Origin: Natronolimnohabitans sp. A-GB9
GTDB lineage: Archaea; Halobacteriota; Halobacteria; Halobacteriales; Natrialbaceae
NCBI RefSeq assembly: GCF_030848565.1
Contig: NZ_JAVDDV010000002.1
Location: 310,001 to 374,000, forward strand
Direction: 5' to 3'
DNA: 64,000 nt
Numbering within the stretch: position 1 is the first letter of the stretch; each line of letters opens with the position of its first letter. Of the stretch, positions 39,668-40,019 are shown one piece after another. The position numbers and the translations under genes were made by a program. The notes under the pieces were generated by a model, which was not told where the DNA came from, searched no databases, and saw nothing but the letters and a program-made list of their open reading frames with translations.

Positions 39668-39686
39668 ACCCGATTTTCAGTGAAAG
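39668..39686. other. ORB 3 (degenerate, in the orc1 promoter)
   Basis: ACCCGATTTTCAGTGAAAG: the core is intact but the G/C string is reduced. It covers the presumed TATA region of orc1/cdc6. Confidence 0.6.
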
Positions 39687-39733
39687 GGGCGAGACCCGCG
39701 AAAACATCGGGTGAGCGACTGCAGGGATCGAAG

Positions 39734-39751
39734 TGGGGGTGAACACCCCCA
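39734..39751. repeat. G-rich palindrome beside ORB 4
   Basis: TGGGGGTGAACACCCCCA, a perfect 8-bp inverted repeat with a 2-bp spacer, its right end merging with the C-string of ORB 4. It doubles the G-string motif next to the box. Confidence 0.5.
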
Positions 39752-39771
39752 CCCCTCGTTTTCAGTGAAAG
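39750..39771. other. ORB 4 (left border of the unwinding region)
   Basis: CACCCCTCGTTTTCAGTGAA plus AG, full match to boxes 1 and 2. It faces box 5 across the AT-rich region in inverted orientation. Confidence 0.8.
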
Positions 39772-39822
39772 GCTCCGAAAGGGTGTTGGGTTGTGTCGGT
39801 CGCGCTCCGTCTCCCTTGATCG

Positions 39823-39955
39823 CGTTATTATATTATTTACTGTAACGGTAAAGTAGTAGTAAGTAGTATAGTATAGAAAGTGAGTAGAGTAAATGTACCA
39901 GGGATATTCTAAAATGTCGCTCTAGCACAATCAGTTCTTTATATACAACTCGGTG
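39823..39955. other. AT-rich DNA unwinding element of the replication origin
   Basis: About 130 bp of strikingly AT-rich DNA (TTATTATATTATTTACTG, then AAGTAGTAGTAAGTAGTATA and TTCTTTATATACAACT) inside a GC-rich genome, bordered by inverted ORBs at 39750-39771 and 39998-40019 and beside orc1/cdc6. This is the standard haloarchaeal origin layout. No ORF. I take 39750-40019 as the core origin. Confidence 0.8.
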
Positions 39956-39997
39956 ATCGGCTACGGACTCACGACTATCGGCTCCCCACATTCGACC

Positions 39998-40019
39998 GTT
40001 TCACTGAAAACGAGGGGTG
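39998..40019. other. ORB 5 (right border of the unwinding region)
   Basis: GTTTCACTGAAAACGAGGGG plus TG: reverse complement of boxes 1, 2 and 4, so it points toward the AT-rich region from the opposite side. Confidence 0.8.

Follow-up and report, generated by a model that had tools for sequence, protein, structure and literature searches.

A very probable orc1/cdc6-linked replicator-initiator module with a conserved AT-core at an inversion breakpoint in Natronolimnohabitans sp. A-GB9

Many orc-linked replication origins of haloarchaea are dormant (PMC4595724, PMC3528665). In H. hispanica, five of the seven predicted origins replicated plasmids (PMC3528665), and in H. mediterranei some origins fire only once others have been deleted (PMC4595724). 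The oriC1 of H. hispanica requires paired origin recognition boxes (ORBs) around AT-rich DNA, with an experimentally supported enhancing G-rich repeat located within the box pair, and at its oriC2 the ORBs downstream of cdc6E titrate Cdc6E (PMC3936714).

The window analysed here, a stretch of 64,000 nucleotides (contig C12, 310001-374000, of a 4.3-Mb draft genome), contains a locus of this type: an intact Orc1/Cdc6 gene lies directly beside at least two inverted ORBs with G-strings and an AT-rich region between them, upstream of the gene as in the haloarchaeal orc/cdc6-linked origins (PMC3528665). The segment from 38252 to 40019 very probably constitutes a replicator-initiator module that is complete and transferable and belongs to a non-oriC1 family of haloarchaeal origins, and, judged from its sequence, this module is probably a competent origin. 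The described non-oriC1 families likewise occupy differing places, some of them on plasmids (PMC3528665). The initial annotation recognized the known haloarchaeal origin design, and this assignment holds: the anatomy matches published origins, and 15 copies conserve the combination of box, gene and spacing. The design itself is ordinary; what is notable is an AT-core at fixed spacing, a half-box at the promoter and the location at an inversion breakpoint. The conserved AT-core and the fixed-spacing half-box distinguish the module from the origins of PMC3528665.

Table 1. Coordinates of the origin module and its parts in the window
Feature	Position	Strand	Basis
Inversion breakpoint interval holding the module	38139..40116	.	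bounded by the APC gene end (38139) and the YdjM gene end (40116), where homology with relatives is lost
Downstream ORB 2	38252..38272	-	exact
Downstream ORB 1, probable initiator-titrating site	38283..38303	-	exact
orc1/cdc6 initiator gene, 427 aa (AAA+, Cdc6 lid, winged helix)	38345..39628	-	Pfam Cdc6_lid 4e-24, Cdc6_C 4e-14; start by homologues
TATA-like TTTAT, 26 nt before ATG; putative leaderless promoter	39655..39659	-	invariant among aligned intact copies
Promoter half ORB TTTCACTGAAAA of orc, lacking the G-string; probable operator for autoregulation	39674..39685	-	kept in 15/15 intact copies
G-rich inverted repeat adjoining the proximal ORB, species-specific	39733..39752	.	9-bp arms, 2-bp spacer; DNA fold z -2.4
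Gene-proximal full ORB	39750..39770	-	exact; G-string towards gene; -142 (+/-1) from start codon in 15/15 intact copies
AT-rich region, presumed unwinding element	39816..39945	.	best 130 bp, 69% AT vs mean 36.6%
Conserved AT-core CTACTTTACCnnTACnnTAAATAATATAATAACGCGATCA, ~40 bp	39817..39856	-	alignment of 13 copies, near-invariant
Distal full ORB, inverted	39999..40019	+	exact; every intact copy has it, at -260 to -391

The ORB is a 21-mer, TTTCACTGAAAACGAGGGGTG, present in four exact copies in the window and in none after shuffling. These are all the exact copies of the 4.3-Mb genome, and all four sit at one orc1/cdc6 gene. Across the whole genome the reversed control pattern has no matches, and a relaxed search (up to 3 mismatches in the first 19 bases) adds a single place, with 3 mismatches, on another contig. 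The ORB set is real and far beyond chance; its exact sequence was not found in the literature searched. The initial annotation placed full boxes at 39750 and 39998, facing each other about 225 bp apart. Two identical exact boxes inverted around AT-rich DNA are indeed present, as in H. hispanica oriC1 (PMC3936714), with the right box starting at 39999 and a gap of 228 bp; their G-strings point outward from the AT-rich region, so the boxes diverge. The same outward orientation occurs at other candidate origins of the genome. Direct ORBs follow the orc stop codon, two in the window and two to four across the intact copies, resembling the oriC2D array of H. hispanica 3' of its cognate cdc6, and by analogy they may titrate the initiator; the oriC2 array has 11 boxes against two in the window (PMC3936714).

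The initiator gene adjoins the boxes intact, as annotated. Its start codon at 39628 corresponds to M13 of the longest open reading frame and is common to all homologues, and the nearest solved structures are the Cdc6 proteins of Sulfolobus and Aeropyrum. A dN/dS of 0.03-0.08 relative to relatives shows purifying selection and that the initiator is maintained. The G-rich palindrome that had been noted beside one box (at 39734-39751) also exists, with slightly wider limits, and the upstream regions of the other module copies lack it. It is located outside the ORB pair, unlike the repeat of H. hispanica oriC1 (PMC3936714), from which the locus also differs in an initiator that is not of the oriC1 type. 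The palindrome was called terminator-like by a scan built for bacteria, which carries little weight. A role as a conserved enhancer is ruled out by its restriction to this species, and from the sequence comparison it is unlikely to be a conserved part of the origin.

Among 125 genomes of the family, the ORB (up to 1 mismatch) is found in 20, distributed over 7 of the 29 genera. The complete module, consisting of the distal inverted box, AT-rich region, proximal box, half-box, orc gene and two to four direct boxes after the stop codon, is present in 14 family genomes, the window included, and in one Halovenus-labelled MAG, giving the 15 copies; in one genome (G020) it is split across two contigs. 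Plasmid-borne copies occur in Natronorubrum bangense, Natrinema versiforme, Natronosalvus amylolyticus and, in broken form, Natrinema sp. SYSU A 869. Relics remain in five further genomes. In Natrinema sp. SYSU A 869 (L076), which has an interrupted orc gene, the distal and downstream boxes persist, the proximal box and half-box having been lost. In a second relic (L079:9877-10112, genome G090), distal and downstream boxes lie about 200 bp apart with neither orc nor AT-core, and in the other three (L072, L073, L084) single or paired boxes are left. The parts of the module decay or vanish together. N. versiforme has, in addition, an orphan box pair with an AT-core (L078:5386-7019); the orc next to it is a different one, 45% identical, with a box type of its own close by.

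The inter-ORB DNA is 55% AT over its full length. An extremely AT-rich stretch of about 130 bp, as initially described, is confirmed within it (39816-39945), and only about three places in 370 kb reach this richness. In the copies with an AT-core, 50-bp GC bins drop to 0.24-0.32 at the equivalent place. Majority identity within the core is 0.83-0.98 per 10 bp in a nine-copy alignment and about 0.5 in neighbouring intergenic DNA, and the distance from core to proximal ORB is 54+/-1 bp in 13 copies, with measured values of 53-54 bp. In these 13 copies, the distal box alone floats, with a gap to the proximal box of 189-228 bp. A progression of this gap in approximately helical-turn steps (195, 206, 216, 228) was considered and discarded: independent lineages are too few, and 189 misfits. 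The family search finds the core in 13 family genomes at one origin type, a count in which the match in G110 was taken without closer inspection. Two genomes (G039, G109) keep the boxes and the gene and lack the core. A second origin family, with its representative in this genome 42 kb away, served as a control; its boxes are conserved, and it has no comparable core.

At the promoter, all 15 intact copies have the half-box directly upstream of TTTAT, at -57 (+/-1) relative to the start codon (56-57 bp to the ATG) and at a distance of 85+/-1 bp (84-86 bp) from the proximal ORB. This arrangement of half-box, TTTAT and ATG follows the layout of a leaderless haloarchaeal promoter. In the Halovenus-labelled MAG, the half-box carries the ATACACTG variant, as do three of its four full boxes; since the variant is common to both, the sequences suggest that one protein may read half-box and full ORBs alike. 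The likeliest reading is that Orc itself would bind the half-box and block the basal transcription factors, a form of autorepression. Conserved ORB-like boxes are likewise present at the promoter of the second orc family, an unrelated one located 42 kb away.

These elements are best explained by the following scheme. The Orc1/Cdc6 protein from the adjacent gene would bind the two inverted full ORBs and open the AT-rich DNA between them, with the AT-core next to the proximal box as the most likely place of melting, after which Orc would load MCM to give bidirectional replication. The same Orc on the half-box upstream of the TATA element would limit its own transcription, and the direct boxes 3' of the gene would soak up surplus initiator. 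A similar logic is seen in bacterial oriC-dnaA, where datA titrates the initiator and DnaA boxes lie in the dnaA promoter (cited in PMC3936714): the initiator gene at the origin, promoter sites and titrating sites all recur here. Protein and sites are unrelated, and the likeness is one of logic, not of membership.

The position of the module among the replicators of this genome bears on its activity. The genome contains 17 full orc1/cdc6 genes. The orc gene 42 kb away (L006; L029:9050-10761; C12:307.05-308.76 kb) is accompanied by inverted CACTCGAACGACGGGGT-type boxes and an AT-rich region. It lies within the inverted segment described below, and its ORB-like promoter box is conserved and close to the TATA box. 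The neighbour of oriC1 is a signal peptidase gene, and on contig C34 a Sec11-like gene occurs together with an orc that has a long acidic insertion; we take this locus to be oriC1 on account of that neighbour. The insertion of this oriC1-type Orc (L015, C34:111753-115559) is of low complexity, about 100 aa or more in length, and located between the AAA+ motifs. The window locus does not show the oriC1 arrangement of a conserved Orc beside a signal peptidase gene, accompanied by an oriC1-type ORB, and its flanks differ. The window origin belongs to the orc1-linked haloarchaeal origins and is distinct from the universal oriC1.

In the initial annotation the region was a strong candidate for an active origin, with a GC-skew inversion at this point proposed as a check. 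Activity is plausible; against the stronger wording stand the 17 orc genes with an oriC1 elsewhere and the skew, since neither GC nor AT skew switches at the site, and a change-point analysis of GC, AT and purine skew over 370 kb of the one contig detects nothing at the origin. Such a switch is not required of an origin that is secondary or has been relocated. The same observations, together with a recently moved position and the precedent of H. mediterranei oriC4, where dormancy of acquired origins has been proposed (PMC4595724), would fit a complete and competent origin that is unused in normal growth and fires only as a backup, the work being done by the C34 oriC1 and the origin 42 kb away. 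This dormant state has a little under an even chance of being the correct description; the strong purifying selection, exact boxes and exact spacings indicate that the whole module is kept functional. A half-box at the TATA box would also suit an Orc acting mainly as a transcription factor on the operators of its own gene, like Sulfolobus Orc1-2, and an Orc paralogue that regulates transcription is known (PMC9738581). Operators alone leave the distal inverted ORB, the fixed-spacing AT-core and the plasmid-borne copies unexplained, and there is no regulon, because the exact box occurs nowhere else in the genome, which makes this function very improbable. The plasmid-borne members of the family in several species and the relics elsewhere could point to a decaying leftover of an integrated plasmid origin with no present function, and this is equally improbable given that all parts are intact, the orc gene remains under the constraint given above, and the flanks are chromosomal genes in an order conserved in relatives. 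A competent origin remains the preferred reading of the module.

The role of the AT-core is a separate question. Sulfolobus oriC1, with its ucm and UBP, likewise has a short conserved motif within the AT-rich DNA that separates its inverted ORBs (PMC12141716). The ucm is common to all three Sulfolobus origins, unlike the AT-core, which is specific to one origin family; a single match to CTACTTTACCnnTACnnTAAATAATATAATAACGCGATCA (up to 3 mismatches) in its own genome rules out a motif shared genome-wide. Tentatively, and with some doubt, the core may be a sequence-specific haloarchaeal origin element read by Orc or another partner at fixed helical phase; with about 5 turns between core and proximal ORB and about 8 between that ORB and the promoter half-box, unwinding and autorepression would be geometrically coupled in one nucleoprotein complex. 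The block is TATA-like as well as conserved and might instead be the promoter of an overlooked transcript, a small RNA or peptide, with no unwinding element. This is unlikely: the block holds a fixed distance to the proximal ORB, the distal ORB alone is conserved on its far side, and a search of RNA families (Rfam) at the locus gave no match.

Homology of the module with other carriers spans about -240 to +1400 from the start codon, and no other carrier shares the window flanks. In G098, the genome of the window's genus that appears to be Natronolimnohabitans innermongolicus, and in two others (G106, G107), the sequence at C12 231.2 kb adjoins the amino-acid permease gene end (348.139 kb), and that at 236.3 kb is next to the YdjM gene (350.116 kb). 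Four more genomes (G025, G028, G037, G039) show single junctions of this arrangement. The window species therefore carries an inversion of about 112 kb. The inverted segment extends over C12:236.3-348.1 kb (within the window, from its left end to 38139) when compared with relatives of several genera, and both junctions lie inside one 474-kb contig. By these comparisons the inversion is unique to the window lineage, and the origin module fills one breakpoint. At the other breakpoint (C12:231.2-236.3 kb; L091:11230-16310) lies a cluster of TctABC-like transporter genes with a PAPS-reductase-like gene, none of which is found at this junction in the relatives examined. No repeat common to the two breakpoints was found, and inversion by recombination between repeats was rejected for this reason.

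Haloterrigena and N. innermongolicus share a different location of the module, flanked by a thioredoxin-reductase gene and a glyoxalase-like gene. The window species has these flanks at C12:4.3-5.6 and 15.9-16.7 kb, and they enclose no orc; therefore the module moved, or was lost and regained. In the orc tree, the window copy is placed outside the group of Haloterrigena and N. innermongolicus (98% support), a placement that, in a tree of the orc gene alone, would fit regain.

In conclusion, the inversion breakpoint offers a concrete case of an origin changing place within one genus. The clear division of rigid and floating parts over many genomes points to the targets for mutation, namely the AT-core, half-box and both fixed spacings. 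Haloarchaea hold many orc-linked origins, and the module bears on which of their parts matter and why some are dormant. If the half-box represses orc1, archaea would share the negative feedback of bacterial dnaA, achieved with an unrelated protein.
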